A stretch of 64,000 nucleotides of DNA from Xenophilus azovorans DSM 13620. GTDB lineage: Bacteria; Pseudomonadota; Gammaproteobacteria; Burkholderiales; Burkholderiaceae_C. The stretch lies in the NCBI RefSeq assembly GCF_000745855.1, contig NZ_JQKD01000012.1:62001-126000 (forward strand), in the 5' to 3' direction. The notes beneath the pieces were generated by a model. That model was not told where the DNA came from, ran no database searches, and saw only the letters and a program-made list of their open reading frames with translations. Each line of letters opens with the position of its first letter. Within the stretch, counting starts at the first letter, position 1. The position numbers and the translations under genes were made by a program. Below are positions 1,447 to 56,108 of the stretch, piece by piece.

Positions 1447-2505
1447 CTATTCCATCGTGATGTTCGCGGCGCGGATGATGCGGCCGAACTTCTCGCGGTC
1501 GCTGCGCATCAGCGCCGTGAACTGCGCGGGGTCCTGATAGAAGGGCACCTGCCCCTGCGCGTCCAGGTGCGCCTTCACGTCGGGCATCGCGAGGATGCGT
1601 CCGATCTCGGCCGTCAGCTTGGCGACCACGGGCGCGGGCGTGCCGGCCGGCGCCAGGATGCCGGTCCACGACTTCATGTCGAACGAGGGCAGCCCCGCCT
1701 GTGCGAAGGTCGGCACCTCGGGCAGCGCCGCCAGAGGGGTGTCGCCGGTGTAGGCGAGCGCGCGCAGCTTGCCGGTCTTGACGTGGCCGATCACGGACAC
1801 GGGCACCGAGAACATCGCCTGCACCTGCCCGCCCAGCAGGTCGTTGATGGCCGGGCCGCCGCCCTTGTAGGGCACGGCGGTCAGCTTCACGCCGGCCTCC
1901 ATGTTGAACAGCTCGCCCGCGAGCTGGTTGGCGTTGCCGGCGCCCGAGATCGCATAGTTGATCCGGCCCGGCTGCGCCTTCGCCTGCGCGATCAGCTCCT
2001 GCAGCGTGCGCGCCGGCAGCGAGGGATGGGTCACGAGCAGGAACTCGCTGCGGTACAGCGTGGCGACCGGCGCGAAGTCCTTCTCGCTGTCGTAGGGCAG
2101 CTTCGGCATCAGCAGCGCGTTGATCACGTGCGTGCTGGCCGTCAGCAGCAGCGTGTAGCCGTCGGCCGGCGCCTTGGCCAGCGCCTGGGTGCCGATGACG
2201 GTGTTGCCCCCGGGCCGGTTGTCGACGACCACCGGCTGGCCCCAGGCCTCGTTGAGCTTCTGGGCGATCAGGCGTGCGACCGGGTCGGTGCTGCCGCCTG
2301 CCGGGAAGGGAATCAGCAGGCGGATGGGCCGGTCGGGGAAAGAGGAGGAGGGCGCTGCATCGCCGGCTGCCGGCGCCGCGCCCGCGCAAAGGCCGAGCAG
2401 CGCGACCGACGCGGCCTGCGCGAGGCCGCGCAGGACCCGGCGCCTCGGCGGCTGAGAAACAGGCTGCGTGTTCTGGCGGGTTGTCGTCTCTTTCTGGTCT
2501 TTCAT
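1447..2505 (-). CDS. Bug-family (TctC-like) substrate-binding protein
   Basis: A 352-aa periplasmic receptor of the tripartite tricarboxylate transporter family. A twin-arginine-like N-terminus (PPRRRVLRGLAQAASVALLG) is followed by the family opening FPDRPIRLLIPFPAGGSTD, then DNRPGGNT and the PYKGGGPAINDLLGGQVQ region. The start at 2505 has GGAG a few bases upstream. No TctA/TctB lies beside it, as is common for the many orphan Bug proteins of Burkholderiales. A TTGACA-N18-TAGACT promoter with a LacI-type operator over the start point lies upstream, so it is probably induced with the rest of the catabolic cluster. The ligand is likely an organic acid, unidentified. Confidence 0.93.
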   Translation of the reverse strand: MKDQKETTTRQNTQPVSQPPRRRVLRGLAQAASVALLGLCAGAAPAAGDAAPSSSFPDRPIRLLIPFPAGGSTDPVARLIAQKLNEAWGQPVVVDNRPGGNTVIGTQALAKAPADGYTLLLTASTHVINALLMPKLPYDSEKDFAPVATLYRSEFLLVTHPSLPARTLQELIAQAKAQPGRINYAISGAGNANQLAGELFNMEAGVKLTAVPYKGGGPAINDLLGGQVQAMFSVPVSVIGHVKTGKLRALAYTGDTPLAALPEVPTFAQAGLPSFDMKSWTGILAPAGTPAPVVAKLTAEIGRILAMPDVKAHLDAQGQVPFYQDPAQFTALMRSDREKFGRIIRAANITME

Positions 2506-2547: not shown

Positions 2548-2561
2548 TGATAGCGGTAACA
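2548..2561. promoter_or_regulatory. LacI-type operator A
   Basis: TGATAGCGGTAACA, an imperfect palindrome centred on CG at 2554-2555. It matches the shared pattern TGnTAnCGnTAnCA and covers the predicted start point (~2559) of the minus-strand Bug promoter, a classical repressor position. Five similar sites occur in this cluster. Confidence 0.75.
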
Positions 2562-2565
2562 TTCA

Positions 2566-2595
2566 AGTCTAGGTGCAGCGCCACGGGATTGTCAA
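2566..2595 (-). promoter_or_regulatory. Sigma70-type promoter of the first Bug gene
   Basis: On the minus strand, TTGACA (2595-2590), an 18-base spacer and TAGACT (2571-2566). The predicted start is ~2559, inside operator A, giving a leader of about 54 bases. The same arrangement recurs at 13843-13872. Confidence 0.7.
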
Positions 2596-2680
2596 GAAAG
2601 AGGAAGGGAAGACCTTTCCAGCGGCACGGCGCATGCCTCGATCCAAGGGAAAACCGGGATGGGAAAAGCCCTTCGGTCGT

Positions 2681-2710
2681 TTGACAAGCGCTGTTGGCGG
2701 TGCCTACAGT
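2681..2710 (+). promoter_or_regulatory. Sigma70-type promoter before the ThDP-enzyme operon
   Basis: TTGACA (2681-2686), 18-base spacer, TACAGT (2705-2710), with a TG extension (2701-2702). The predicted start is ~2717. Operator B lies about 47 bases downstream, so repression there would be by roadblock or through contact with operator A. Confidence 0.5.
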
Positions 2711-2762
2711 CCAAGCCTCCCCCCTCGTTTTTCTCAATCCGTCCGCTTCCGCGCATCCATAA

Positions 2763-4436
2763 ATGTTATCGCTAACTAAACTCAAGGAATCCCAGAAGAC
2801 GAGCGCCGCCGAGCAGCCGCTGCTCGTGGTCGACGTGCTGGCGCAGCGGCTCGCCGCGCGCGGCGTCAGGCGCATCTTCGGCGTGCCGGGCGGCGACTGC
2901 AGCCTGGACCTGATCGGCGCCTGTGCGAAGATCGGCATCGACTTCATCCTCGCGCGCACCGAATCGGCCGCGGGCATGATGGCCAGCATCACGGGCGAGC
3001 TCACGGGTGCGCCGGGCGTGCTGATGGTCACGCGCGGGCCGGGTCTGGCGCACGGCATGAATGGCGTGGCCTACGCGGCGCTCGACCGCGCGCCGCTGCT
3101 GGTGCTGGCCGACGGCTACGACAGCCCCCGCATGGACCACGTGGCGCACCAGCGCTACGACCAGCACGCGATGATCGCGCCGCTGTCCAAGGGCAGTTGT
3201 GGCCTGGCCGGCAGCGACCCGGGGCGCGACATCGATGCGCTGCTCGATCTCGCGAGCGCCGATCCGCCCGGGCCGGTGTACATCGAGATGCGCGGCGGGG
3301 AGATCCGGCGCGAGATCGGCGCGGAAGGCGGCCCCGGGCGCCCGGCCGCGCGCACCGGCACCACCGCGCCGGCGCCGCGCGCGGCGCTGCCCGAGCGCGC
3401 CAAGGCGCTGCTCGCGGGTGCCCGCCATCCGGTCATCGTCGCGGGGCTGCAGGCCTGCGATGCGGCGGCCTCGGCCGCGCTGCGCAAGCTGGCGGCGGGC
3501 TGGAACTGCCCGGTGCTCGAGAGCTACAAGGCCCTGGGCACGATGTCGGCGGACGATCCGCAGGCGGTGGGCTGCTACACCGGCGGCGCCTCCGACGCGG
3601 TCCTGCTGTCGCAGGCCGACCTGGTGGTGCTCTACGGTCTGGACGCGATCGAATTCCCGGCGCACAAGTGGCTGTTCGCCGGCCCGGTCGTGGAGTTCAC
3701 CACGCACGACTTCCCGCGCAACATCGTGCAGCCCGAAGTCAGCATGACAGGCCCGCTCGCCGGCTTCGCCGAGGCCGCGCTCCCGGTGGTCGGGAAAAGC
3801 GCCTGGACGGCCGACGCGCTCGCCGCGGCGCGCGCCGAACTCAAGCGCCGCGCCCGCGCCGACCAGGGCGAGGGGCCGATCACGCCGCAGGCGGTGGTCG
3901 ATGCCGTGTGCGCCGCGGCGCCGCCGCAGGCGCGCATCGCGCTCGATGCCGGGGCCCACATGCTGCCGGTGCTGCACGCCTGGCATGCGACCGAGCCGCG
4001 CCAGTCGCTGATCTCGCGCGGCCTGGCCACCATGGCCTTCGCGCTGCCGGCGGCCATCGGCTCGGCGCTGGCCGAACCGGACCGCCCCGTGATCGCCTTC
4101 ACCGGGGACGGCGGCCTGATGATGTGCCCGGGCGAGCTCGGCACCGCGGTGCAGTACGGCTGCAGGCTGGTGGTGGTGGTGTTCAACGACGAGAGCCTGA
4201 CGCTGATCGAGGTCAAGCAGCGCCAGCGCGGCTTCGAGCGGCGCGGGCTGGACTTCTCGCCCGCCGACTTCGCCAAGGTGGCCGAGGGCTTCGGCTGCCT
4301 CGGCCTGCGCGTGGAAAAGCCCGAGGAACTGGCGCCCGCGATGCGGCGCGCCTTCGCGCACGACGGCCCGGTGGTCATCGACGCCGTGGTCAACCCCCAC
4401 GCCTACACCGCGCAGCTCGCCGCCCTGCGCGGCTGA
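2763..4436 (+). CDS. ThDP-dependent enzyme, acetolactate synthase / 2-oxoacid decarboxylase type
   Basis: A 557-aa three-domain thiamine diphosphate enzyme. The PYR domain has GVPGGDCSLD and the catalytic Glu ~67 (LARTESAAGMM). The PP domain has GDGGLMMCPGEL (~448) and an Asn ~28 residues later (VVFNDESL), the ThDP/Mg motif. Family members decarboxylate 2-oxoacids or join the product to an acceptor; which applies here is not clear. It heads a tight operon with the TauD-type dioxygenase, SDR and Bug receptor. ATG 2763 has no Shine-Dalgarno sequence and lies in operator B; GTG 2826 is an alternative start. A clear paralogue lies at 9040-10686. Confidence 0.88.
   Translation: MLSLTKLKESQKTSAAEQPLLVVDVLAQRLAARGVRRIFGVPGGDCSLDLIGACAKIGIDFILARTESAAGMMASITGELTGAPGVLMVTRGPGLAHGMNGVAYAALDRAPLLVLADGYDSPRMDHVAHQRYDQHAMIAPLSKGSCGLAGSDPGRDIDALLDLASADPPGPVYIEMRGGEIRREIGAEGGPGRPAARTGTTAPAPRAALPERAKALLAGARHPVIVAGLQACDAAASAALRKLAAGWNCPVLESYKALGTMSADDPQAVGCYTGGASDAVLLSQADLVVLYGLDAIEFPAHKWLFAGPVVEFTTHDFPRNIVQPEVSMTGPLAGFAEAALPVVGKSAWTADALAAARAELKRRARADQGEGPITPQAVVDAVCAAAPPQARIALDAGAHMLPVLHAWHATEPRQSLISRGLATMAFALPAAIGSALAEPDRPVIAFTGDGGLMMCPGELGTAVQYGCRLVVVVFNDESLTLIEVKQRQRGFERRGLDFSPADFAKVAEGFGCLGLRVEKPEELAPAMRRAFAHDGPVVIDAVVNPHAYTAQLAALRG
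2764..2777. promoter_or_regulatory. LacI-type operator B
   Basis: TGTTATCGCTAACT matches the shared operator pattern except at the last base. It overlaps the first possible ATG (2763) of the ThDP enzyme. Its centre is 216 bp from that of operator A. Confidence 0.65.
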
Positions 4437-4466
4437 GCGGACGCACGCAACCCAAGGAGACAAGCA

Positions 4467-5330
4467 ATGGCATTGAAAGTGCGCCCCCTGGCGCCGGCGA
4501 TCGGCGCGGAGATCGTGGACTTCGACCTGGCGACGGACCTGGACGACGACAGCTTCGCGCAGATCGAGTCGGTGTTCAACGACCGCGGGCTGCTGCTCTT
4601 TCGCAAGCAGCGGCTGAGCGAGCAGCAGCACATCGACGTCAGCCGCCGCTTCGGCCCGCTGCAGGACCACGTGCTCAAGCCCTATCTCATCCCCGGCTAT
4701 CCGCAGATCCTGCGCATCACCAACCTGCTCGACAAGGACGGCCAGCCGATGGGCATCGGCGATGCGGGCCTGTTCTGGCATTCCGACACCTCGTACAGGA
4801 GGGACCCATGCCGCTGCTCGCTGCTCTACGCGATCGAGGTGCCGGCGCGCGACGGCGAGCGCAGCTACGGCGACACCCTGTTCGCCAGCCTCACCGAGGC
4901 CTACGACGCACTCGACGAAGGCACGCGCCGGCAGATCGACGGGCTGTCGGCCGAGCACTCCTACGGCAAGCACTACGCGCGCATGCAGGCGGCGGGCTCC
5001 AAGCGGCCCGACCTGACCGACGAACAGAAGCGCGAGGTGCCGAAGGTGATGCACCCGGTGGCCCGGCCGCATCCGATCACTAGGCGCAAGGCGCTGTACG
5101 TGAACGACGGCTACACCACGCACATCCAGGGCATGGCACCGGCCGAGAGCGACGCGCTGCTGGAGCGGCTGGTGGCGCAGACCATCCGCCCGGAGTTCAG
5201 CTACCGCCACCGCTGGAACGAGGGCGACCTGCTGATCTGGGACAACTCCTCCACGCAGCATCTGGCGATCGCCGACTACGCGCTGCCGCAGCGCCGCCTG
5301 ATGCACCGCACCACGGTGCTGGCGGCCTGA
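4467..5330 (+). CDS. TauD/TfdA family Fe(II)/2-oxoglutarate dioxygenase
   Basis: A 287-aa non-haem iron oxygenase. The metal triad is visible: His ~105 and Asp ~107 in FWHSDTSYRR, and a distal His ~265 in TQHLAIADY. Arg ~281 in MHRTTV would hold 2-oxoglutarate. Relatives (TfdA, TauD) hydroxylate a carbon next to an ether, sulfonate or similar group, which then collapses. AAGGAGA stands 9 bases before the ATG. It lies 30 bases after the ThDP gene and 4 bases before the SDR, so the three are cotranscribed and probably act on one pathway. Confidence 0.93.
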   Translation: MALKVRPLAPAIGAEIVDFDLATDLDDDSFAQIESVFNDRGLLLFRKQRLSEQQHIDVSRRFGPLQDHVLKPYLIPGYPQILRITNLLDKDGQPMGIGDAGLFWHSDTSYRRDPCRCSLLYAIEVPARDGERSYGDTLFASLTEAYDALDEGTRRQIDGLSAEHSYGKHYARMQAAGSKRPDLTDEQKREVPKVMHPVARPHPITRRKALYVNDGYTTHIQGMAPAESDALLERLVAQTIRPEFSYRHRWNEGDLLIWDNSSTQHLAIADYALPQRRLMHRTTVLAA

Positions 5331-5334
5331 GGCC

Positions 5335-6096
5335 ATGGCGCACGATTTCGACTTCGGCGGCATGACGGCCGCCGTCACCGGCGCCGGCCGCGGCATGGGC
5401 CGCGAGATCGCGCTGGCGCTCGGCGCGCGCGGCGCGCGGGTGATCGCGGCCGACATCCGGCCCGAGGCCTGCGCGGACACGGCCGAGGCGATCGTTCGCG
5501 CGGGCGGCAGCGCGCGCGCGCAGGTGCTGGACATCGCCGACGTGCCGGCCCTGCGCGCCTTCTTCCGCGGCCTGGACGAGGCGCTCGACATCGTCGTGTG
5601 CGCCGCCGCCATCCTCAAGGTCAAGCCCTTCCTCGAACACGAGGAGGAAGACTGGGACGCACTGGCGCGGGTGAACCTGAAGGGCACCTTCTTCACCGTG
5701 CAGGAAGCGGCGCGCCACATGGCGCCGCGCCGCAAGGGCACGATCGTGACCTTCTCGTCGACCTCCGCCTTCGTGGCATCGCGCGTGCCCGAGATCGCCT
5801 ACGACGTGACCAAGGGCGGCATCCGCCAGCTCACCGTGTCGGCCGCGGTGGAGCTCGCGCCGCTGGGCATCCGGGTCAACGGCCTGGCCCCGGGCACGAT
5901 CCTGACCGACTTCAACCGCGCCACGCTGGACACGCCCGAGCGCCTGCAGGCTGCCGCCAACGGCCTGCCGCTCGGCCGCGTGGGCACGCCGGACGACGTG
6001 ATCGGCGCCGCGCTCTACCTGTGTTCGCCGATGTCCTCGTACGTCACGGGGCAACTGCTCGTCGTGGATGGCGGGCGGCTGTGCCGCTCCGGCTAG
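5335..6096 (+). CDS. SDR family oxidoreductase
   Basis: A 253-aa classical short-chain dehydrogenase. The cofactor motif VTGAGRGMGREIA is at ~14-26, the catalytic Ser in FSSTSAF and YDVTKGG has Tyr ~156 and Lys ~160. The NAD(P) adenine-pocket acidic residue in AADIRPE suggests NAD. The C-terminal VTGQLLVVDGG is family-typical. It begins 4 bases after the dioxygenase stop, so translation is probably coupled. It likely oxidises an alcohol or reduces a carbonyl made by its neighbours; the substrate is unknown. Confidence 0.92.
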   Translation: MAHDFDFGGMTAAVTGAGRGMGREIALALGARGARVIAADIRPEACADTAEAIVRAGGSARAQVLDIADVPALRAFFRGLDEALDIVVCAAAILKVKPFLEHEEEDWDALARVNLKGTFFTVQEAARHMAPRRKGTIVTFSSTSAFVASRVPEIAYDVTKGGIRQLTVSAAVELAPLGIRVNGLAPGTILTDFNRATLDTPERLQAAANGLPLGRVGTPDDVIGAALYLCSPMSSYVTGQLLVVDGGRLCRSG

Positions 6097-6138
6097 GTCC
6101 GGCGGACCGAGCGGCCCCCGAATGAGAAGGAGACAAGC

Positions 6139-7149
6139 ATGCAATCCCACGATCCCACCCTCACGCGCCGCGAGGCCCTCGCCTCGCTGGCGCTCGCGGC
6201 CGCCGGCGGCGGCCTGCTCGCCGCGGGCGGCCACGCCGCTGCCGCCGACGCGCCGTGGCCGACGCGGCCGATCCGCTGGGTGATTCCCTACGCGGCCGGC
6301 GGCACCTCGGACATCATCGTGCGCGCGGCCGCCGTGAAGCTCGGCGAGCGCCTGGGCCAGGCGGTGGTCGTCGAGAACAAGACCGGCGCCGGCGGCAACC
6401 TCGGCACCGACTTCGTCGCCAAGTCGCCGCCCGACGGCTACACCTGGGTGGTGGGCAACACCGGGCCGATGGCGGTCAACGTCAGCCTCTACGCCAGCAT
6501 GCCCTTCGACCCGCAGAAGGACCTGGTGCCGATCACGCTGCTGGTGGCCTATCCCAACCTCGTCGTCGCGCATCCCGAGAAGGGGCCGAAGTCGATGCAG
6601 GAACTGCTCGCGCTGGCCCGGGCGCAGCCGATCGCCTATGCCGGCAACGGCGTCGGCACCTCGCTGCACCTGACGGGCCAGCTGCTCGCGCAGAGCGCCG
6701 GCATCCAGCTCACCCACGTCGCCTACCGCGGCGAGGCGCCTGGCCTGACCGACGTGATGGCCGGCGTGGTGCCGATCGGGATCACGCCGATCGCCTCCGG
6801 CCTGCCGCTGGTCAAGGGCGGCAAGCTGCGCGGGCTGGCGGTGACGGGCGCCGAGCGCTCGCCGCTGCTGCCCGAGGTGCCGACGGTCGCGGAATCGGGC
6901 GTGCCGGGCTTCGAGGCCACCGGCTGGGTCGGCATCCTGGTGCCGCGCGGCACGCCCCAGCCGGTTGTGGACCGTCTGGCCAGGGAGTTCGTCGCGGTGA
7001 TGCAACTGCCCGACATCCAGCACATCGTGAAGAACGACATGGCCTCCTTCGTGCCCCCGCTCGGGCCGGACCACTTCGCGGGCTTCATCGAAAGCGAGAC
7101 GCAGCGCTGGCGCAAGGTGGTGCGTTCCGCCAACCTCAAGGCCGAGTAG
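6139..7149 (+). CDS. Bug-family (TctC-like) substrate-binding protein
   Basis: A 336-aa periplasmic receptor and the last gene of the ThDP-TauD-SDR operon. A twin-arginine-like signal (TRREALASLALAAAGGGLLA) precedes WPTRPIRWVIPYAAGGTSD, ENKTGAGGN and HVAYRGEAPGLTDVMAG. AAGGAGA is 7 bases before the ATG. No membrane subunits are adjacent, so it must use permeases encoded elsewhere. Its cotranscription with catabolic enzymes suggests it binds the pathway substrate. It differs in sequence from the two other receptors in the cluster, so the three probably have different ligands. Confidence 0.92.
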   Translation: MQSHDPTLTRREALASLALAAAGGGLLAAGGHAAAADAPWPTRPIRWVIPYAAGGTSDIIVRAAAVKLGERLGQAVVVENKTGAGGNLGTDFVAKSPPDGYTWVVGNTGPMAVNVSLYASMPFDPQKDLVPITLLVAYPNLVVAHPEKGPKSMQELLALARAQPIAYAGNGVGTSLHLTGQLLAQSAGIQLTHVAYRGEAPGLTDVMAGVVPIGITPIASGLPLVKGGKLRGLAVTGAERSPLLPEVPTVAESGVPGFEATGWVGILVPRGTPQPVVDRLAREFVAVMQLPDIQHIVKNDMASFVPPLGPDHFAGFIESETQRWRKVVRSANLKAE

Positions 7150-7161
7150 CCTGAAACGGAA

Positions 7162-7183
7162 GCGGCGGCCCGCGGGCCGCCGC
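7162..7183. terminator. Perfect GC palindrome between convergent operons
   Basis: A 22-base perfect palindrome, flanked by GGAA and TTCC that extend the pairing, lies between the Bug gene stop (7149) and the convergent Rieske gene stop (7204). It has no long T-tract. It could act as a bidirectional terminator for both operons. Confidence 0.5.
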
Positions 7184-7203
7184 CTTCCGGGCAGGGTCCT
7201 TCC

Positions 7204-8508
7204 TCAGAGCCCCATGCGCTCGCGGTAGTAGCTGTAGAAGCCGCGGATCAGCGTCTCGGTGATCATGGTGTCCATCGGCTGGTGGTCCACGCCGCCCATC
7301 GTCACGACCTGCACCGCATCGGGCGCACCCTCGACTGAGGGCTGCATCTTCGCGAGCACCTCGCTGTCGTCGATCGCCACGTAGCCGGCCGGCCCCATCA
7401 GGTTGGCCTGCTTGAGGCGGCGGCGGGTCATCGCCTCGTCGTCGTCCTCGAAGCCGTAGTGCGTCCAGGCCAGCTCGGACTGCGAGGCCGACTTCGGGAT
7501 CAGGTGCCGCAGCGCCAGCGAGTTGCCGTGCTGCTGGAAGAAGATCGACGGCATGACCGAGAAGTTGATCATCGAGCTGTCGCCCATCTCGTCGACCGGC
7601 TTGACGACTTCCATGTCCTCCAGCCTGAAGTCGCTCTTGAGGTTGGCCAGCTCCTTCGTGACCTCGTTCTGCTGGCCCGCGGTGCTGGCCGAGTAGGTCG
7701 ACGCCATGATGCCGTGGCGGCCGCCGAGCGTGGGCACGGCCTTGAAGGCCGTGTCGGTGCGCAGCAGGCCGAAGGTGAGGAAGAAGCTGTGCAGCAGCGT
7801 GGCGTGGTAGGGGTCGCGGCTGTTCTCGAGGTAGAGCTTCCAGTTGCTGGGCAGCAGTTGCCGGTTGTAGCCGAGCAGGCGCAGCTTCTTCCCGCCGCCC
7901 CCCGTGGCGCGGTTGACCAGGCCGAGGATCTCCTCGCCCAGGTAGTCCTCGAGCGGCGGCGTCTCCTCCGAGAAGGTGGCCCAGACCACGCCGTTGAAGG
8001 TGGCCACGCGCAGCCGGCGCAGCCCGTGCTCGCTCTTCTTGAAGTCGCGCGGCATGCCGCCCTTGCCCATGGCGCCGCGCAGGAAGGGCAGGCCCAGCAG
8101 GTTGCCTTCGAGGTCGTAGCTCCAGTGGTGGTAGGGGCAGGTGAAGTCCTTCACCGTGCCCTTGCTCTCCCAGCACAACTGCGAGCCGCGGTGTGCGCAG
8201 CGGTTCTCCAGCACGTTCACCGCGCCGTCCTCGCCGCGCACCATCACCACCGAGCGGGTGCCGACCCAGCTGCGCTTGTAGGCGCCGGGCTGCTCGATCT
8301 CGCATTCGAGGCCGACGAAGTTCCAATGCGGGCCCTCGAAGAAGACCTGCATCTCGCGCTGGAAGATCGCGGGGTCGGAATAGATCCATGCCGGGATGCG
8401 CGTCCCGGCCGGCTCGGGCCAGCGCCGCAGCGCGAGCATGGAGACGGGGGCTTGCGCGGCCTGGGCGCAGGACGGGGCTTCGAGGGTGGTGCTGTCCGAA
8501 GAGGTCAT
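7204..8508 (-). CDS. Aromatic ring-hydroxylating dioxygenase, alpha (Rieske) subunit
   Basis: A 434-aa catalytic subunit. The Rieske [2Fe-2S] ligands are Cys104, His106, Cys124 and His127 (CAHRGSQ and CPYHHW). The mononuclear iron site is in RDPYHATLLH (Asp232, His235, His240). Such enzymes add both atoms of O2 to an aromatic ring to give a cis-diol, which may collapse with loss of a substituent. The beta subunit lies 10 bases upstream and the paralogous ThDP enzyme before that, forming a three-gene operon. Length and motifs resemble the benzoate/anthranilate/salicylate-type oxygenases, but the substrate is not determinable by eye. Confidence 0.95.
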   Translation of the reverse strand: MTSSDSTTLEAPSCAQAAQAPVSMLALRRWPEPAGTRIPAWIYSDPAIFQREMQVFFEGPHWNFVGLECEIEQPGAYKRSWVGTRSVVMVRGEDGAVNVLENRCAHRGSQLCWESKGTVKDFTCPYHHWSYDLEGNLLGLPFLRGAMGKGGMPRDFKKSEHGLRRLRVATFNGVVWATFSEETPPLEDYLGEEILGLVNRATGGGGKKLRLLGYNRQLLPSNWKLYLENSRDPYHATLLHSFFLTFGLLRTDTAFKAVPTLGGRHGIMASTYSASTAGQQNEVTKELANLKSDFRLEDMEVVKPVDEMGDSSMINFSVMPSIFFQQHGNSLALRHLIPKSASQSELAWTHYGFEDDDEAMTRRRLKQANLMGPAGYVAIDDSEVLAKMQPSVEGAPDAVQVVTMGGVDHQPMDTMITETLIRGFYSYYRERMGL

Positions 8509-8518
8509 GCTCGGGATC

Positions 8519-9019
8519 TCACAGGGGATAGACGAGGGAAGTGCGCACGCGGTAGTTGTCGAACACGCACACGCGCTCGCGCAGCAGCAGGCGGCCGTCC
8601 TGGCGCACCAGGCGATCGAGGTAGCGGCCCACCATGAAAAGGTGCGGCTCGCGGTCGGAGAGCGACTCGAAGACGGCGAAGCTGGCCTGGGCCTCGACGC
8701 TGCCGTCCTCATGCAGCGCATTGACGCGCACGCCGCTGACCATGCGCCGCACGGTGCGCGGCTCGAACACCGCGGTCTCGCGGATGGCCGCCGCCCGGTC
8801 GCGCAGCGAGCCCTGGCCCTGGCAGGCGATGGTGGACAGCGGCAGCTTCGCCTGGAAGTTCTCCAGCGACACCACCCGGTAGAGGCAGTCGTCGGTGAAG
8901 AAGGCGGTCCAGCGCGCGAAGTCGAGCTCGTCGAGCGACGCGGCGTAGTCGTCGTTGAGGTCGCGCAGCTCGGCGCGCAGGGCGGCATGGGCCGCCGTCG
9001 GGGGGTGTGTCATGTCCAT
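8519..9019 (-). CDS. Aromatic ring-hydroxylating dioxygenase, beta subunit
   Basis: A 166-aa protein of the NTF2/SnoaL-like fold used by dioxygenase beta subunits. Family-like segments are RDLNDDYAASLDELDFARW, FFTDDCLYRV and RERVCVFDNYRVRTSLVYPL. It supports the alpha3beta3 hexamer and has no catalytic residues of its own. The start at 9019 (MDM) follows a GAAGAGACGAG stretch; the second ATG at 9013 is possible. It lies between the ThDP paralogue and the alpha subunit. Confidence 0.93.
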   Translation of the reverse strand: MDMTHPPTAAHAALRAELRDLNDDYAASLDELDFARWTAFFTDDCLYRVVSLENFQAKLPLSTIACQGQGSLRDRAAAIRETAVFEPRTVRRMVSGVRVNALHEDGSVEAQASFAVFESLSDREPHLFMVGRYLDRLVRQDGRLLLRERVCVFDNYRVRTSLVYPL

Positions 9020-9039
9020 GCGTCTCGTCTCTTCGGGAT

Positions 9040-10686
9040 TCAGCCGCGCAGGGAGCGCAGCTGGGCGTCGTAGGTCTCGGGATCGACCACCACGTCGAGC
9101 ACGCAGGGGCGCTCGCAGGCCAGCGCCTTCTCGATGGCCGGGGCGAGCTCGGCGGCCTCGGTCACGCGCCAGCCCTCGCAGCCGAAGCCGCGCGCCACCT
9201 GCGCGAAGTCGCTGGCCGAGTAGTCCATGCCCTGGCGCTCGAAGCCGCGCTGCTTCTGCTTGACGCCGATCATCGCGATGGCCGAGTCGTTGAACACCAG
9301 CACCACCAGCCTGCAGCCGGCCTGGGCGGCGGTGGCGAGCTCGCCGGCGCACATCATCAGGCCGCCGTCGCCGGTGAAGGCCACCACCGGACGCTGCGGA
9401 TCCGCCAGTGCGGCGCCGATGGCCGAGGGCAGGGCGTAGGCCATGGTGGCCAGGCCGCGCGAGATCAGCACGTCGCCCGGGTTGCGCGCCTCCAGGAAGG
9501 CCAGGACCGGCAGCATGTGGGCGCCGGCGTCCACGCTGGCGCGCGCCTCGCGGGGCAGCAGGCTGCAGGCGGTGCGGGCCAGCAGCGTGGGCGTGATCGC
9601 GCCGTCCTTCAGCGTGGTGGCGCGCTCGCGCATGTGGGCCTTCAGGGCCGCCAGCTCCTGCGGCTGCCAGGCGCTGCGCGGCAGGTCCCGCGCCAGTTCG
9701 CCGGCCGAATGCGCGAGGTCGCCGATCAACGCCACCGCGGGGATCCAGTGGTTGCGCGGGAAGGGGCTGGCGCTCAGCTCGACCACGGCGGCGGGATAGC
9801 GCCAGGGCTTGGGCAGCAGCTCGATCGGGTCGGTGCCGAAGGTGAGGATCAGGTCGGCCGCGTTGAAGGTCTCGGCCTCGGCCCCGCCGGCCATGAAGTG
9901 GCCCATCGAGAGCGCGTCGGCATCGGCGATCGCGCCCTTGCCCATGTAGGTGGTGAACACCGGACAGTGCCAGCGCGCGGCGAGCGCGCGCAGCGCCTCC
10001 GCCGCGCCCGGCTCGCGCGTCTGCAGCCCGGCGACGATCACCGGCCGCCGGGCCGTCGCCAGCAGCCGGTGCGCCGCCTCGATTGAGGGCACGGGCGCAT
10101 GGGGCAACGGCACGGGCGCGGCCGGCGAGACCGGCACCGACAGTGCGGGCACCTGGTTGCGCAGGCCCTGGCCCGTGACCTCGAGGTAGACCGGGCCGGC
10201 GGGCCGGGCGACCGCGAGGTCGAGCAGGGGCCCCAGCGCCGGCAGCGCGGCCGGCGCGTCGATGCGCAGCGAGCCCTTCACCACCGGCTCCAGCACGCGC
10301 TGCTGGTCGAAACGCTGGTGGCTCACGAAGGCCTGCTCGTTCTCGTAGCCATCGCTGATGACCACGATGCCGCAGCGGTCGAGCATGGCGCAGGCCACGC
10401 CGTTCACGCCGTTCGCGAGCCCCGGGCCGCGCGTGGTCAGCACCACGCCGAGCCGGCCCGTGACCTGGTAGGCCGCGGCCGCCATCATCGCCGCCGCGTT
10501 CTCGCTGCGCGCGAGCACGAAGCGGATGCCCACCGCTTCCGCGGCCGCGATGACGTCCAGGCTGCAGTCGCCGCCCGGAACACCGTAGATGTGGGTGACG
10601 CCGCGTGCCTTGAACTGCGCAGCGAGCGCGGCGGCGCCGCCGAGCGTGGCGCCGGCGGACGCGCCGGACGGGGAGGGGCTGGTCAT
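9040..10686 (-). CDS. ThDP-dependent enzyme, acetolactate synthase / decarboxylase type (paralogue)
   Basis: A 548-aa relative of the enzyme at 2763-4436, with the same signature YGVPGGDCSLD, catalytic Glu in LARSENAAAMM, and ThDP motif GDGGLMMCAGEL followed by VFNDSAIAMIGV. The identical opening signature and co-linear domains show they are paralogues. The start at 10686 has GAAGGA upstream and removes a long N-terminal extension that has no family match. It heads the operon with the Rieske dioxygenase subunits. A possible role is decarboxylation or carboligation of a 2-oxoacid in the same pathway. Confidence 0.92.
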   Translation of the reverse strand: MTSPSPSGASAGATLGGAAALAAQFKARGVTHIYGVPGGDCSLDVIAAAEAVGIRFVLARSENAAAMMAAAAYQVTGRLGVVLTTRGPGLANGVNGVACAMLDRCGIVVISDGYENEQAFVSHQRFDQQRVLEPVVKGSLRIDAPAALPALGPLLDLAVARPAGPVYLEVTGQGLRNQVPALSVPVSPAAPVPLPHAPVPSIEAAHRLLATARRPVIVAGLQTREPGAAEALRALAARWHCPVFTTYMGKGAIADADALSMGHFMAGGAEAETFNAADLILTFGTDPIELLPKPWRYPAAVVELSASPFPRNHWIPAVALIGDLAHSAGELARDLPRSAWQPQELAALKAHMRERATTLKDGAITPTLLARTACSLLPREARASVDAGAHMLPVLAFLEARNPGDVLISRGLATMAYALPSAIGAALADPQRPVVAFTGDGGLMMCAGELATAAQAGCRLVVLVFNDSAIAMIGVKQKQRGFERQGMDYSASDFAQVARGFGCEGWRVTEAAELAPAIEKALACERPCVLDVVVDPETYDAQLRSLRG

Positions 10687-10774
10687 CGTGAGGAATCCTT
10701 CGGGGTGGTGAACGCGTTGCGGGCCGCTGCCGTGCCGGCGCGGCGCCTCGCGAGTGCATGCATGTCTCGGGAAT

Positions 10775-10802
10775 ATGGTATCGATACCATTCGGATTTAC
10801 AA
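10775..10802 (-). promoter_or_regulatory. Candidate promoter of the ThDP-dioxygenase operon
   Basis: On the minus strand, TTGTAA (10802-10797), 16-base spacer, TACCAT (10780-10775). Operator D fills the spacer and -10 region. Moderate match to sigma70, supported by the operator position. Confidence 0.4.
10776..10789. promoter_or_regulatory. LacI-type operator D
   Basis: TGGTATCGATACCA, the most symmetric of the six sites; with one more base on each side it is a perfect 16-base palindrome (10775-10790). It lies over the candidate promoter of the minus-strand ThDP-dioxygenase operon, 81 bp centre to centre from operator C. Confidence 0.78.
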
Positions 10803-10819
10803 GCCACCGATGCGGCCGG

Positions 10820-10848
10820 TTGACGCGCACATCAGTGGTCAATAACAT
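10820..10848 (+). promoter_or_regulatory. Sigma70-type promoter of the FAD reductase gene
   Basis: TTGACG (10820-10825), 17-base spacer, TAACAT (10843-10848). The predicted start point falls at 10855-10856, on the first base of the ATG, so the mRNA would be leaderless. Confidence 0.6.
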
Positions 10849-10855
10849 CGAATCT

Positions 10856-12115
10856 ATGGTAACGCTAACACATAAGCAAGGTGGCGACAAGACATTCGTG
10901 GTCGTCGGTGGCGGTCATGCCGCGGGCAGGGCCATCGAGGCGCTGCGCGAGAGCGGCTTCGGCGGGCGCATCGTTCTCATCGGCGAGGAGCCCTCTCCGC
11001 CCTACGAGCGGCCGCCGTTGTCGAAGGACCTGCTCTCGGGCAAGGCCGCGCTCGACAGCCTCTGGGTGCGGCCGCAGGACTGGTATGCGCAGCAGGGCAT
11101 CGAGCTGCTGCTGGGGCAGCGCGCCGACGCCATCGACAGGAAGGCCGCGCGCGTGCTGCTGGCCGACGGCCGCTCGGTCGCCTACGACCGGCTGCTGCTG
11201 ACCACCGGCGCGCGAGCGCGTCCGCTGACGGTGGAAGGCGCGGACCTGCCCGGCGTGCACGCGGTGCGGACCATCGCGGACGCGCTGGCGCTGCGCGAGC
11301 GGCTGTGGCCCGGGGCGCGGCTGCTGGTGGTCGGCGCGGGCTTCATCGGGCTGGAGGTGGCGGCCGTGGCGCGCGAGCGCGGCTGCGAGGTGACGGTGAT
11401 CGAGGCCGCGGCGCATCCGCTGGGCCGCGTGGCGCCGGCCTCGGTCGGAACGATGTTCGCCGAACTGCACCGCTCCTTCGGCGCGATGCTGCGCATGGAT
11501 ACGGTGCTCACCCGCATCGCGCGCGGCCCCGATGGCCGGGGCCTGGTCGCCTTCACGGCCGACGGCTTCGAATGGCAGGGCGATGCGGTGGTGGCAGGCA
11601 TCGGCTCGGTGCCGAACACCGAACTGGCGGCTGCGGCCGGGCTGGCGGTGGACAACGGCGTCCGTACGGACGAATACGGCCGCACCAGCGACCCGGCCAT
11701 CTACGCGGCCGGCGACGTCACCTCCCACTTCAACCCGCTGCTGGGCCGGCACCTGCGGCTGGAGACCTGGCAGAACGCCCAGAACCAGGCGATCGCCGTC
11801 GCCCGGGCGATGGCCGGCGGCGACCAGCCCCATGCCGAGGTACCGTGGTTCTGGACCGACCAGCACGGCATCAACTTCCAGTCGGCGGGCGCGCCGCTGG
11901 GCTGGGACGAGGTGCTGTGGCGCGGCGACCCGGGCGCGCGGCCGTCAATGGTGTTCTATCGGCAGGACGGCATCGTGGTGGGTGGCGCCACCATCAACCA
12001 GGGGCGCCTGATGCGCCATCTTAAGCAGCTGATCGCCCGCCGCGCACGCGTGGACGGCGCGCTGCTGCAGGACCCGTCCTCGCCGCTGGACAGGATCGCG
12101 AACTCAGCGCCGTGA
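10856..12115 (+). CDS. FAD-dependent ferredoxin reductase-type oxidoreductase
   Basis: A 419-aa reductase of the putidaredoxin/rhodocoxin-reductase family. FAD binds at VVVGGGHAAG (~15-24), NADH at LLVVGAGFIGLEVA (~157-170), and the second FAD contact is IYAAGDVTSH. The C-terminal domain contains WFWTDQHGINFQSAG, typical of this family. It would pass electrons from NADH to a ferredoxin serving the divergently encoded Rieske dioxygenase. No ferredoxin gene is visible nearby. ATG 10856 coincides with the predicted transcription start and has no ribosome-binding site; a start further in would cut close to the FAD motif, so leaderless translation is plausible. Confidence 0.9.
   Translation: MVTLTHKQGGDKTFVVVGGGHAAGRAIEALRESGFGGRIVLIGEEPSPPYERPPLSKDLLSGKAALDSLWVRPQDWYAQQGIELLLGQRADAIDRKAARVLLADGRSVAYDRLLLTTGARARPLTVEGADLPGVHAVRTIADALALRERLWPGARLLVVGAGFIGLEVAAVARERGCEVTVIEAAAHPLGRVAPASVGTMFAELHRSFGAMLRMDTVLTRIARGPDGRGLVAFTADGFEWQGDAVVAGIGSVPNTELAAAAGLAVDNGVRTDEYGRTSDPAIYAAGDVTSHFNPLLGRHLRLETWQNAQNQAIAVARAMAGGDQPHAEVPWFWTDQHGINFQSAGAPLGWDEVLWRGDPGARPSMVFYRQDGIVVGGATINQGRLMRHLKQLIARRARVDGALLQDPSSPLDRIANSAP
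10857..10870. promoter_or_regulatory. LacI-type operator C
   Basis: TGGTAACGCTAACA fits TGnTAnCGnTAnCA exactly. It begins inside the ATG of the reductase gene and directly follows the predicted start point, so a bound repressor would block initiation. Confidence 0.72.
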
Positions 12116-12286
12116 AGGCGGCGCGGACGCTTCCCCGGCGCGGCGCTGCTCCGGCGGGCGCTCGCTGGCCTGCGGCTCGCCCTGGGGAGCCACCCCCTCC
12201 CACGACTGCGCCTCCGCCGCGAGCCCGGCCCGGGCGAGCCGCACGCAGCGCGCCAGGAAGCGCAACAGCCGCCGGCGCGCATCCAT
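12104..12286 (-). CDS. Small arginine-rich hypothetical protein (doubtful)
   Basis: A possible 60-aa reading frame starting 10 bases after the stop of the ABM-like gene, with AAAGG upstream. It begins MDARRRLLRFLARCVRLARA and is rich in Arg, Ala and Pro, with no recognisable domain. Its end overlaps the end of the convergent reductase gene by 12 bases. High GC favours chance frames of this kind, so it may not be a gene. Confidence 0.3.
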   Translation of the reverse strand: MDARRRLLRFLARCVRLARAGLAAEAQSWEGVAPQGEPQASERPPEQRRAGEASAPPSRR

Positions 12287-12296
12287 CCGCAGCCTT

Positions 12297-12632
12297 TCAG
12301 TCCGCCGCGCTGCACACCGTCAGCACGGCGCGCTGGCGCGGCCACAGCTCGAACTCGTCCTGGTCCGCCGTGCTCGCGCGCGGCACGTAGGCCTTGAAGT
12401 GCGCCAGCGAGGCCCAGCGTTCCACCATCACGAAGGTCACGCAGCCGGGATTGCCCGCGAGATGGAAGCTGTTGAGGCCGGCAGGCAGTTCGGCGTGCGC
12501 ATCCACGCGCGTGAGCGTCTTGCCGATGAAGCCTTCCGCCGTCACCGCCGGCTGGCGGGCAACCCAGGCCTCGTACTCGGAGGCGCGTTCCGGCTTGACG
12601 AAGCGGCGGATCAACACGATGCATTCGGTCAT
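12297..12632 (-). CDS. ABM-like dimeric alpha-beta barrel protein
   Basis: A 111-aa protein. TECIVLIRRFVKPERASEYE, AEGFIGKTLTRVD and VTFVMVERWASLAHFKAYV have the beta-alpha-beta pattern of the dimeric ferredoxin-like barrel (antibiotic biosynthesis monooxygenase/EthD group). Members include cofactor-free monooxygenases and isomerases. Start 12632 is preceded by GGAGGAAG. Operator E lies 36 bases upstream and the LacI gene diverges from it, so it belongs to the regulon. Family assignment is by pattern only; the exact reaction is unknown. Confidence 0.72.
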   Translation of the reverse strand: MTECIVLIRRFVKPERASEYEAWVARQPAVTAEGFIGKTLTRVDAHAELPAGLNSFHLAGNPGCVTFVMVERWASLAHFKAYVPRASTADQDEFELWPRQRAVLTVCSAAD

Positions 12633-12667
12633 TTCGATGTCTTCCTCCATCAGGTGGGAAAGGAAAA

Positions 12668-12681
12668 TGATACCGCTATCA
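12668..12681. promoter_or_regulatory. LacI-type operator E
   Basis: TGATACCGCTATCA fits the shared pattern exactly and lies between the ABM-like gene and the divergent lacI-type gene. It can serve both, which suggests autoregulation of the repressor. Confidence 0.75.
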
Positions 12682-12801
12682 GTTCCATGTGTCTGCTGCC
12701 GGGCCCGGCGCACTGCGGTCGATCGAAGGCAGAATCGCCCCGCGCCCGCGTCGGCCACGGAGGAAGGCAGCGCGCACGACATCAACACGACGAGGATTGG
12801 C

Positions 12802-13818
12802 GTGGGAAGGAAGAAGACGGAACCCGGGTTGTCGATGAAGCTGGTCGGCAGCCTGGCAGGCGTGTCCGCGATGACGGTCTCGCGGGCGCTCCGGGACCCG
12901 GGGGCCGTGTCCGATGCGGTGCTCGAACGCATCCGGGCGGTGATCGACGAGTTGGGCTACGTGCCCAACCGCGTCGCCGGCAGCCTGTCTTCCAACAAGA
13001 CGACCCAGGTCGCGCTGGTGGTGCCCAGCCTGCGCACGGCCATCCACGCGGAGATGATCCAGGGCATCTCGGATGCGCTGCGGCAGCACCACTTCCAGCT
13101 CATGATCTCCGACTGCGGCAACTCGATGGCGCTGGAGGAAGCGCAGATCCGTGGCTATGTCGCGCAGCGCGTGTGCGGCATCATCCTGCACAACACCCGC
13201 CACAGCGAGGCGGCGCTGCGCATCCTGGCCGGGGCGGGCATCGCCTGCGTGGAGACCGGCGACCTCACCCGCCAGCCGGTCGATTCGGTGGTGAGCTATT
13301 CCAACGCCGCTGCCGGCGCGGCGATGGCGGCGCACTTCGTGGAGGCCGGCTACACGCGCATCGCCTTCGCCAGCCTGCCGGTGAAGAACCGGGAACGCAT
13401 CCGGGCACTGCGCCAGGGCTTCGTCACGGGGTTGCGCAAGGCAGGCATCGTGGTCCCGCCGGCGCTGCGGCTGGAGGTCGAGCCCGGCATGCAGGGCGGC
13501 GCCCGCGCGCTGTCGACCATCCTCGAGACCGCGCCGCGGACGCAGGCCGTGCTCTTTGCGGGTGACGTGCTCGCCGCCGGCGCGGTCTTCGAATGCCAGC
13601 GCCGGGGCATTCCGATCCCCGCCGGGATCGCGATCGCGAACTCGGACGACGGCGAACTCATCCAGAACATGGTGCCCGGCGTCACCGCGATCCAGTACCC
13701 GCGCTACGACATCGGCGTGCGCGCCGCGAGGATCGTGATCGAGCGCGCGCTCGGACGGCAGAGCGGGCCGGTGGTGCAGGACGTGGGCTTCTCGGTGGTG
13801 CGCCGCGGCAGCACCTGA
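12802..13818 (+). CDS. LacI-family transcriptional regulator
   Basis: A 338-aa repressor. The N-terminal HTH is at ~12-31 (MKLVGSLAGVSAMTVSRAL), followed by a hinge region (GYVPNRVAGSLSS) and a periplasmic-binding-protein-like effector domain (VALVVPSLRTAIHAEMIQGI to the C-terminus). GTG 12802 with GAGGA 5 bases upstream gives the normal family length; longer upstream frames lack similarity. The recognition helix VS-x-MTVSR resembles that of GntR of E. coli, whose sites are of the ATGTTA-N4-TAACAT type. The six TGnTAnCGnTAnCA palindromes in this cluster fit that type. The effector is probably a pathway intermediate. Confidence 0.95.
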   Translation: MGRKKTEPGLSMKLVGSLAGVSAMTVSRALRDPGAVSDAVLERIRAVIDELGYVPNRVAGSLSSNKTTQVALVVPSLRTAIHAEMIQGISDALRQHHFQLMISDCGNSMALEEAQIRGYVAQRVCGIILHNTRHSEAALRILAGAGIACVETGDLTRQPVDSVVSYSNAAAGAAMAAHFVEAGYTRIAFASLPVKNRERIRALRQGFVTGLRKAGIVVPPALRLEVEPGMQGGARALSTILETAPRTQAVLFAGDVLAAGAVFECQRRGIPIPAGIAIANSDDGELIQNMVPGVTAIQYPRYDIGVRAARIVIERALGRQSGPVVQDVGFSVVRRGST

Positions 13819-13842
13819 GCAGGGTCTTCCGGGCCTCGGTGC

Positions 13843-13872
13843 TTGACCTTGTGCGCCGGCCCGAACTAGACT
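13843..13872 (+). promoter_or_regulatory. Sigma70-type promoter of the third Bug gene
   Basis: TTGACC (13843-13848), 18-base spacer, TAGACT (13867-13872). The predicted start (~13879) is inside operator F. Same layout and same -10 hexamer as the promoter at 2566-2595. Confidence 0.7.
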
Positions 13873-13873
13873 A

Positions 13874-13887
13874 TGTGACCGGTAACA
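13874..13887. promoter_or_regulatory. LacI-type operator F
   Basis: TGTGACCGGTAACA; one base (position 4) departs from the shared pattern, and flanking TA on both sides extends the symmetry to 18 bases (13872-13889). It covers the start point of the promoter just upstream. Confidence 0.7.
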
Positions 13888-13941
13888 TAAAGGCAGCAGA
13901 GCACTTCGATGCCGTGCCTGCCCACGACAAGGAGACGCCCC

Positions 13942-14913
13942 GTGATCCGCCTGTTCTGCGGTTTCGCCACCCTGGTGGCCCTCGCGCTGCCTGCCGTGCC
14001 CGCGGCCGGGCAGGACTATCCGGCCAAGCCGATCAAGATCGTCGTCGCCAGCGCGGCCGGCGGCGCCTCGGACATCCTGTCGCGCCTGGTGGCCGAGAAG
14101 ATGCAGCAGGCGCTGGGCCAGCCGGTGGTGGTCGAGCCCCGTCCCGGCGCCAACGGCAACATCGCGGCAGAGTACGTGGCCGCCGCGCCGCCCGACGGCT
14201 ACACGCTGATGATGGGCACGATCGGCGCGCTGGCGATCAACGCCTCGCTCTACAGGAACGTGCACTACGACCCGCTCAAGGACTTCGTGGCCGTGGCACG
14301 GCTGGTGTCGTTCTCCAACCTGCTGGTGGTCAAGGCGGCACTGCCGGTGAACGACGTGAAGGAGCTGATCGCCTATGCCAAGGCGCATCCCGGCAAGCTC
14401 AGTTTCGGTTCCCCCGGAGCAGGCGGCTCGCCGCACATGGCGATGGTGCAGTTCGCGCAGATGGCGGACATCGACCTGGTCCATGCGCCGTACAAGGGCG
14501 CGGCGCCGGCCCTGAACGACCTGATGGGCGGCTACATCGACCTGGCCTTCAGCGATCCGCTGCTGACGCAGCCGCATCTCGAGGGCAAGCGCATCCGCGC
14601 GCTGGCGGTGAGCGGCAGCAAGCGCCTGCCCTCGCTGCCCGACGTGCCGACGGTGGCCGAGGCCGGCGTGCCCGGCTACGCGGTGAGCGGATGGCTCGGC
14701 ATCGCGGCGCCCGCGCGCACGCCGCCGGCGATCGTGAACAAGCTCAATGCCACGCTCAACGAGATCATGAAGCAGCCCGACATGGTCGCCAAGATGCGCG
14801 AGCAGGGCGCCGAGATCATCACCACCACGCCGGAGGAGTTCGGCCGCTTCGTGGCTTCCGAGCACGCGCGCTGGAAGCAGGTGATCGCGCGCGGGAAGCT
14901 CGTCGCCGATTGA
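13942..14913 (+). CDS. Bug-family (TctC-like) substrate-binding protein
   Basis: A 323-aa periplasmic receptor. GTG 13942 with AAGGAG 7 bases upstream gives a clean signal peptide (IRLFCGFATLVALALPAVPA, then AGQD). ATG 13909 is in frame but has no ribosome-binding site. Family segments are YPAKPIKIVVASAAGGASD, EPRPGANGN and APYKGAAPALNDLMGG. It is the third orphan Bug gene of the cluster and is placed under operator F. The SMP-30-like lactonase follows after 74 bases and is probably cotranscribed. Confidence 0.93.
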   Translation: MIRLFCGFATLVALALPAVPAAGQDYPAKPIKIVVASAAGGASDILSRLVAEKMQQALGQPVVVEPRPGANGNIAAEYVAAAPPDGYTLMMGTIGALAINASLYRNVHYDPLKDFVAVARLVSFSNLLVVKAALPVNDVKELIAYAKAHPGKLSFGSPGAGGSPHMAMVQFAQMADIDLVHAPYKGAAPALNDLMGGYIDLAFSDPLLTQPHLEGKRIRALAVSGSKRLPSLPDVPTVAEAGVPGYAVSGWLGIAAPARTPPAIVNKLNATLNEIMKQPDMVAKMREQGAEIITTTPEEFGRFVASEHARWKQVIARGKLVAD

Positions 14914-54400: not shown

Positions 54401-54489
54401 CGTGGACCTCCGCAATGTGTCGGATGCAGGAACGACTTCACGGTAGCACGCTTCGTTGCGCCGTGCATGCGTTGCGGCATCATCCCCGC

Positions 54490-55341: not shown

Positions 55342-55523
55342 CCGGCGTCCCATCGCCGTGTCATCGCCAGGCCGACGCGCCCTGTAGGCCGAAGGCGCAA
55401 CCCGCCGGCCAGCCGCGCCAGGCGGCGTTTTTGGTGTCATCCTGCGGTGCATGGCAGGCGTTCGACCTGCGTGGCACCACGCCACGGGCGCGATGCCCCA
55501 TTCCACAGAAGGAGAACCATTCC

Positions 55524-55970: not shown

Positions 55971-55992
55971 GCAGGTTGCGAGAGCGCCATGC

Positions 55993-56026
55993 AAAAAAAG
56001 ACCCGCTTCGGCGGGTCTTTTTTTTT
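55993..56026 (+). terminator. Rho-independent terminator after the LEA-like gene
   Basis: 7-base arms GACCCGC / GCGGGTC around TTCG (56000-56017), flanked by A-run and nine T. Strong terminator. Confidence 0.92.
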
Positions 56027-56102
56027 GTCGCCGGGCCGCCTCAAGACAAAAAAGCATCCCCTCGGGGGATCGGGCAAGCGCGAAGCGGTTGCCCGAGGGG
56101 TC
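56027..56102 (+). repeat. Structured ~75-bp repeat, tandem unit 1
   Basis: Unit running from GTCGCCGGGCCGCCTCAAG to GCCCGAGGGGTC. It has nested complementary arms (CCCCTCGGG...CCCGAGGGG and GGGCAA...TTGCCC), so it can fold as one long hairpin. It is nearly identical to the next unit and to the inverted copy at 43501-43575. Confidence 0.9.
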
Positions 56103-56108
56103 TTTTTT

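Follow-up and report, generated by a model that had tools for sequence, protein, structure and literature searches.

The DNA stretch analysed here (the window, 64,000 nucleotides) covers positions 62,001 to 126,000 of contig NZ_JQKD01000012.1 (C10) in the 6.54-Mb, 132-contig genome of Xenophilus azovorans DSM 13620. It carries six short palindromes, treated here as predicted operators, together with the gene for a LacI-family regulator, LacI-A, and the end of a catabolic island which extends upstream and holds a second LacI-family gene, LacI-B. An earlier note had listed six such sites, and when the window was searched with the pattern TGnTAnCGnTAnCA, which is its own reverse complement, all six were located, four of them exact and two with one mismatch. 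The sites, with the predicted promoters beside them and the two regulator genes, are as follows (window coordinates unless C10 is given; ThDP, thiamine diphosphate; ORF, open reading frame).

2548..2561, no strand: operator, exact (TGATAGCGGTAACA), = C10:64548; heads the minus-strand Bug/TctC unit; predicted minus-strand promoter TTGACA-N18-TAGACT, start near 2559, inside the site
2764..2777, no strand: operator, one mismatch (TGTTATCGCTAACT), = C10:64764; 5' end of the ThDP-enzyme unit; promoter TTGACA-N18-TACAGT, start near 2717, about 47 bp ahead of the site
10776..10789, no strand: operator, exact (TGGTATCGATACCA); heads the minus-strand ThDP/dioxygenase unit; predicted minus-strand -10 TACCAT overlapping the site, weak promoter match (8/12)
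10857..10870, no strand: operator, exact (TGGTAACGCTAACA); heads the ferredoxin reductase unit; promoter TTGACG-N17-TAACAT, start near 10855
12668..12681, no strand: operator, exact (TGATACCGCTATCA), = C10:74668; divergent gap between a 117-amino-acid ORF (minus) and LacI-A (plus); sole promoter match on the minus strand (9/12)
12802..13818, plus strand: LacI-A, GntR-like LacI-family regulator, 338 amino acids, GTG at 12802 after GAGGA; Pfam LacI and Peripla_BP_3
13874..13887, no strand: operator, one mismatch (TGTGACCGGTAACA), = C10:75874; between LacI-A and a Bug/TctC gene; promoter TTGACC-N18-TAGACT, start near 13879, inside the site
C10:46879-47859: LacI-B, second LacI gene, outside the window, inside the island
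C10:19891, 37023, 40408, 40499, 47932: exact sites upstream of the window
C10:31081, 58656, 64764, 75874: one-mismatch sites of the island

The mismatch lies at the last base in 2764-2777 and at the fourth base in 13874-13887. When the whole window was scanned, no further site with zero or one mismatch was found. Two-mismatch matches at 37804 and 42862 bring the total with up to two mismatches to 8, which is the chance level (mean 6.31 in shuffles of the window; 8 reached in 26 of 100). In 300 dinucleotide-preserving shuffles of the window, the mean was 0.003 exact and 0.19 one-mismatch sites, compared to the observed 4 and 2; the highest counts in any single shuffle were 1 exact and 2 with at most one mismatch, against 4 and 6 in the window. 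The figure of about 0.06 exact chance matches given in the earlier note was thus conservative. That note had placed one site beside the LacI-family gene; in fact two sites flank LacI-A, 12668 lying 5' and 13874 lying 3' of the gene.

The search was extended to the whole genome, which also tested whether the motif is equally common at unrelated genes; the exact sites gave no sign of this. All nine exact sites were found within C10:19891-74681, that is, inside the island, and five of them lie upstream of the window. Seventeen one-mismatch sites were found, four in the island stretch and 13 elsewhere. Thirteen sites (nine exact and four with one mismatch) therefore fall within one 56-kb stretch, C10:19.9-75.9 kb, which starts 42 kb upstream of the window. 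The reversed pattern gave 2 exact matches and 149 with at most one mismatch in the whole genome, and is only a rough control because its TA steps become AT steps. In the 14 other members of the genus (15 genomes compared), 0-2 exact sites were found in each. Furthermore, among 250 genomes of the family this genome had the most exact sites, 9, followed by one with 7, and any exact site was present in 107 of the 250; this ranking uses raw counts, uncorrected for genome size or base composition.

Genes were called by a codon-position composition script, so that starts and unit limits are approximate. In the resulting map the island comprises 53 genes from C10:20.05 to 77.9 kb (about 58 kb). The 13 sites occupy ten gaps between genes: all six divergent gaps, none of the six convergent gaps, and four tandem gaps, of which one precedes the first gene, one precedes an internal Bug gene and two lie 3' of the LacI genes. 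All 53 genes fall in 16 predicted units headed by site-bearing gaps. Non-coding DNA makes up 5.8% of the island, and 11 of the 13 sites are wholly non-coding; one of the remaining two shares one base with a gene end, and window site 2764 overlaps the called start of the ThDP enzyme. The claim that the regulon covers the whole catabolic cluster was too narrow in extent, since the part seen in the window is the right-hand quarter and the regulon reaches about 42 kb further.

A rearranged form of the island was found on plasmid 3 of Variovorax sp. SRS16 (NZ_LR594668.1), where the dioxygenase alpha subunit is 90% and LacI-B 88% identical. In 90 kb of this plasmid, tblastn matched 51 of the 53 island proteins; the two without a match in that stretch were the dienelactone hydrolase and the ferredoxin reductase. 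The gene order differs from that of the island here, and 48 of the 51 matches are 62-92% identical. The remaining three (Bug 54%, SMP-30 54%, LacI-A 43%) are probably not orthologues. Moreover, on the whole SRS16 plasmid LacI-A matches LacI-B alone, so that no LacI-A orthologue is present there (the SRS16 chromosome was not searched), and in the plasmid collection no record reached 60% identity with LacI-A.

The 560-kb SRS16 plasmid contains 11 sites with at most one mismatch. Nine of these are in its island, three of them exact, and all nine lie in the gap 5' of an annotated gene. Sites were found in the ThDP/Bug gap (both sites), in the SDR/MaoC gap (SDR, short-chain dehydrogenase/reductase) and 3' of LacI-B, and also at places which have no site here, among them the positions just ahead of the ferredoxin gene and ahead of the first ThDP gene. 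When three gaps were aligned with SRS16, the sites at C10:64764 and 47932 stood in aligned columns; for the former, window site 2764, ATGTTAnCGCTAACTAAA is common to both genomes. In the 90-kb island-bearing stretch the reversed control was found 4 times, compared to 9 operator sites. The consensus of 22 sites (13 here and 9 in SRS16) was wTGwTAgCGcTAwCAw, with the core TAgCGcTA. The central CG was kept in 22 of 22 sites, and outside the core the information drops to 0.3-0.4 bit within four bases.

The genome has five genes with a LacI-type helix-turn-helix domain (PF00356), and two of these are in the island. LacI-A and LacI-B are 45% identical, and both score above the cut-offs of PF00356 and PF13377. 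Their recognition helices are VSAMTVSRALR and VSLMTVSRALR, respectively, and those of the other three are STATVSR, SKATVSR and SVATVSK; the xMTVSR helix is therefore present in 2 of 5 genes, both in the island. For both proteins the best NCBIfam match was the Pseudomonas GntR model, with 258 bits for LacI-A and 303 bits for LacI-B, below the cut-off of 400; by these matches they are GntR-like LacI-family proteins, not classed as GntR. The same helix core suggests that LacI-A probably shares the operators of LacI-B. A site also stands where autoregulation could act, in the divergent gap 5' of LacI-A and, in SRS16, 5' of LacI-B.

To follow the operator beyond these two islands, homologues of LacI-A (query protein beginning five codons before the GTG start) were collected at E <=1e-40. 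They were present in 87 of 200 family genomes, the own genome included, and the best match elsewhere was 40-41% identical. The 86 other genomes with a match supplied 29 loci, one per genome, and 400 bp on each side of the gene were inspected. A site with at most one mismatch was found at 25 of the 29 loci and an exact site at 7, and the helix [MI]T[VA]SRA was present in 29 of 29 homologues. Of six altered palindromes searched at the same loci, the reversed one was found at 1 locus, the one with AG...CT ends, which keeps the core, at 5, and the other four at none. Relatives of LacI-B behaved similarly: G402 (45% identical) has exact sites on both sides of the gene, G548 (52%) has a site about 170 bp 5' of the gene, and in G046 (47%) a site adjoins a divergent Bug gene. 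Because this last site is about 740-790 bp from the LacI gene, G046 was scored as a miss in the count of 25 of 29. By its distribution, the operator is best assigned to a GntR-like subfamily of LacI proteins. The earlier proposal of a LacI-family, GntR-like regulon is borne out both by these loci and by the NCBIfam matches.

The same proposal named the LacI gene of the window as the regulator, and this part was not sustained. That LacI-A alone regulates all sites agrees with the two sites flanking its gene and with the same operator beside its homologues in other genomes. However, LacI-B shares the helix core and is encoded inside the island, and the SRS16 plasmid, which has LacI-B and lacks a LacI-A orthologue, carries the same operators at the head of orthologous units; the lack of LacI-A matches of at least 60% identity in the plasmid collection points in the same direction. 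Control by LacI-A alone was set aside after the SRS16 comparison and is considered unlikely. Judged by the SRS16 plasmid, where the sites occur with LacI-B and without a LacI-A orthologue, the core regulator of the island is probably LacI-B, and LacI-A would be a paralogue added in this genome.

The position of the sites relative to predicted promoters was then considered. TTGAC was found at a -35-like distance for 8 of the 13 sites, compared with 4.6% of the non-coding positions outside the island (297 of 6515) and 1.2% of those inside it and away from sites (25 of 2131). Several sites (window 2548, 10857 and 13874, for example) overlap the predicted -10 or +1 or lie directly against it, so repression by blocking RNA polymerase is the likely mode of action. 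Operators (ATGTTATCGCTAACT, ATGGTAACGCTAACA) were found to overlap the called start codons at window 2763 and 10856 (likely ATG) and in C10:40408-40426, an overlap that points to starts called in the wrong place or to very short leaders.

The same operators may instead serve an activator or a dual LacI-type protein. Activators exist in the LacI family, as E. coli GntH is so called in the title of a reference within PMC4052901; furthermore, the site at C10:58656 has no promoter match and that at 74668 (window 12668) has one in one direction only. Nevertheless, a site over or against the predicted start, as at window 2548, 10857 and 13874, is not the place expected for an activator, and we regard this alternative as slightly more doubtful than control by LacI-A alone.

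Taken together, it is quite probable that the sites are operators of a GntR-like LacI-family repressor pair which switches the 53-gene, 58-kb catabolic island as one regulon. The clustering of the sites, their placement at unit starts, their presence beside LacI-B in the rearranged SRS16 island and the link between operator and subfamily support this reading. As long as inducer is absent, each 14-16-bp palindrome would be occupied by a LacI-B dimer, and probably by one of LacI-A, at or close to the -10 or +1 of a sigma-70 promoter, and transcription would be stopped. A compound of the pathway would then bind the periplasmic-binding-protein-like domain, the dimers would be released and all 16 units would open together, as is usual to expect for this family. 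Physical binding, repression rather than activation, release by an inducer, the sharing of operators by LacI-A and the substrate are parts which we infer.

Recognition of the palindromes by an unrelated factor is very improbable, since the motif stands beside LacI-type genes at 25 of 29 loci elsewhere and resembles the footprinted Pseudomonas GntR sites given in the excerpts of PMC5902321 and PMC12195362. It is scarcely credible that these sites are merely dispersed repeats, or matches by chance, without a regulatory role: short palindromes may be mobile repeats, but chance is ruled out by the shuffles (about 0.003 exact sites per 64 kb) and by the genome-wide search with its unit-start sites in one island, and mobile elements were judged unlikely from the information of 0.3-0.4 bit within four bases of the core, the flanks having been compared over those four bases.

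Several results weigh against the repressor-pair reading. Four of the 29 homologue loci have no nearby site. On plasmid pEP1 of Sphingobium sp. EP60837, whose LacI protein is 52% identical to LacI-B, no site with at most one mismatch was found in 41 kb; a two-mismatch palindrome directly 3' of the LacI gene was noticed after the fact. In the SRS16 plasmid as a whole the reversed control is commoner than the operator (16 compared to 11, at most one mismatch), the sites at C10:64548 and 58656 are outside aligned columns even though their gaps are occupied in SRS16 too, and the Bug-HyuA-HyuB unit, which has a site here, has none there and adjoins a LysR gene. As to the promoters, 5 of the 13 sites have no TTGAC at the expected distance, C10:58656 lacks any promoter match, the sole match at C10:47932 faces away from the unit there, and the operator itself (TATCAT) contributes to the -10 matches.

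Two of these loci have further features. In SRS16, LacI-B is kept and a LysR-type gene stands beside the operator-less hydantoinase unit (L057:10441-11463, L056:41409-42410). In Sphingobium pEP1 (L058:20001-24373), the genes after LacI encode an SDR, an NAD-dependent oxidoreductase and an MmgE/PrpD protein, like those 3' of LacI-B here; LacI with these three may be a core module shared with an alphaproteobacterium.

A wider speculation, which we offer tentatively and hold to be less likely than not to be right in full, is that the accessory island brings a complete regulatory code of its own: with the same operator on its transcription units, these could move between a plasmid in one genus and an inserted island in another and still belong to the regulon. 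In this genome, two paralogues of equal DNA specificity and diverged effector domains would then read the 13 operators as one switch which integrates two chemical signals for an aromatic or acyl-CoA pathway.

The other genes of the island within the window are the following.

268..1431, plus strand: CaiB/BaiF CoA-transferase (Pfam CoA_transf_3); end of the unit headed by C10:58656
1447..2505, minus strand: Bug/TctC solute receptor (Pfam TctC)
2763..4436, plus strand: ThDP-dependent enzyme, acetolactate-synthase-like, below cut-offs
4467..5330, plus strand: TauD/TfdA-type dioxygenase (Pfam)
5335..6096, plus strand: SDR oxidoreductase (Pfam)
6139..7149, plus strand: Bug/TctC receptor (Pfam)
7204..8439, minus strand: ring-hydroxylating dioxygenase alpha subunit, AndAc-like (375 bits, cut-off 750)
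8519..9019, minus strand: ring-hydroxylating dioxygenase beta subunit, AndAd-like (133 bits, cut-off 230)
9040..10686, minus strand: ThDP-dependent enzyme (Pfam, NCBIfam)
10856..12115, plus strand: ferredoxin reductase, AndAa-like (410 bits, cut-off 650)
12297..12650, minus strand: 117-amino-acid ORF without Pfam or NCBIfam match; 72% to an SRS16 ORF annotated as antibiotic biosynthesis monooxygenase
13909..14913, plus strand: Bug/TctC receptor (Pfam)
14988..15905, plus strand: SMP-30-like lactonase, last island gene; named from the 54% SRS16 homologue; in NCBIfam a ScyE match only, below cut-off

Pfam was run on 50 of the 53 island genes, the metallo-beta-lactamase gene in part; two ABC-transporter genes and the SMP-30 gene were left out. 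The island was found to encode two MmgE/PrpD proteins, an acyl-CoA dehydrogenase, CoA-transferases (two of them double-domain), an enoyl-CoA hydratase, a thiolase, MaoC/FAS1-type dehydratases, hydantoinases A and B, a dienelactone hydrolase, four SDRs, parts of a branched-chain-type ABC transporter, an HMG-CoA-lyase-like protein, three ThDP enzymes, a TauD-type dioxygenase, a Rieske dioxygenase with ferredoxin and reductase, and eight Bug/TctC receptors; three of the 50 scanned proteins had no Pfam match. The two double CaiB/BaiF proteins (C10:22670-25198 and 54230-56779; 842 and 849 amino acids) each contain two CoA-transferase stretches in one chain. The Bug/TctC receptors are at window 1447-2505, 6139-7149 and 13909-14913, with five more in C10:31.1-60.6 kb; five of the eight lead their unit, and no TctA or TctB membrane partner was found among the 50 scanned genes. 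When 20 proteins were compared with NCBIfam (best 25 matches per protein), only the HMG-CoA-lyase-like protein and one ThDP protein passed the cut-off. The dioxygenase parts matched best the AndA (anthranilate dioxygenase) models, below cut-off; because of this likeness the substrate of the island is perhaps an aromatic or related acid.

The island region, C10:19.8-78.8 kb, lies between a gene which we take to be DEAD-box-helicase-like and an SDR/presumed GMP-reductase-like pair, with the outer genes 60 kb apart. In five of the 14 other genus members the flanking genes are on one contig, 1.8 kb apart in G206, 8.2 kb in G071 and G203, 11 kb in G200 and 57 kb in G204; the place is not general in the genus, since in the other nine they are on different contigs. 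Between the flanks in G206, G071 and G204, which have an SDR gene in common there, neither a site with at most one mismatch nor an island gene was found, the latter at a threshold of 40% identity. Therefore, the island occupies a variable place. A search of the genome contigs with LacI-A, which detects close relatives only, gave one distant locus with 23% identity. LacI-B was found at E <=1e-80 in 3 of 399 family genomes, the own genome included, with at most five candidates scored per genome; the system is therefore rare in that sample.

The LacI family appears here to have been enlarged to cover a 53-gene island with ring-hydroxylating dioxygenase, CoA-transferase and ABC-transport genes, in which operators accompany their units through rearrangement. 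The island offers a test of how regulons are assembled on mobile catabolic DNA and of whether two paralogous regulators share one set of operators. The operators and regulators may also be of use in biosensors for the substrate of the island.

Compared with known systems, the Pseudomonas gluconate repressor GntR is close, being the best NCBIfam model for both regulators. The 22-site consensus core TAgCGcTA contains the AGCGCT core of P. plecoglossicida GntR footprints such as TAAGGTAGCGCTGTCTCAGGACAC in the excerpt of PMC12195362, and the P. aeruginosa GntR operator given in part of PMC5902321 ends in TAGCGCT. However, the scores of 258 and 303 bits fall below 400, and GntR controls a few gluconate genes, unlike the 53 catabolic genes here; no gluconate kinase or permease was found among the 50 island genes scanned with Pfam (one in part). 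E. coli GntR and IdnR are likewise two closely related LacI-family regulators, and, according to PMC4052901, the binding sites of IdnR can also be recognised by GntR; operators common to two paralogues thus have a precedent. Unlike LacI-A and LacI-B, these two serve sugar-acid regulons, and the island proteins score lower against both models. The sections of PMC4052901 drawn on here list 1251 of 1303 LacI-family operators as even palindromes, 1173 with a central CG, and autoregulation in 72% of cases; the sites described here are also even palindromes with a central CG.

As for size, CcpA, PurR, FruR, PckR and GapR resemble the present regulators in their many target units, and their sites are dispersed over the chromosome. 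They govern central or purine metabolism (PMC4052901, in part), whereas here an accessory island holds all exact sites. Section 8 of that review defines a global regulon by more than 15 genes, at least 7 operons and control of multiple pathways, and the island reaches this size in silico with 53 genes in 16 predicted units. Reconstructed LacI-type regulons in the same source have one operon in 31% and two operons in 38% of cases, and usually concern sugars. No example of LacI-type control of aromatic catabolism or of Bug receptors was seen among the matches listed from open-licence literature. The parts of the system are of known kinds; what is unusual is its extent, with 13 operators and 53 genes in one accessory island, its non-sugar content and its twin regulators.

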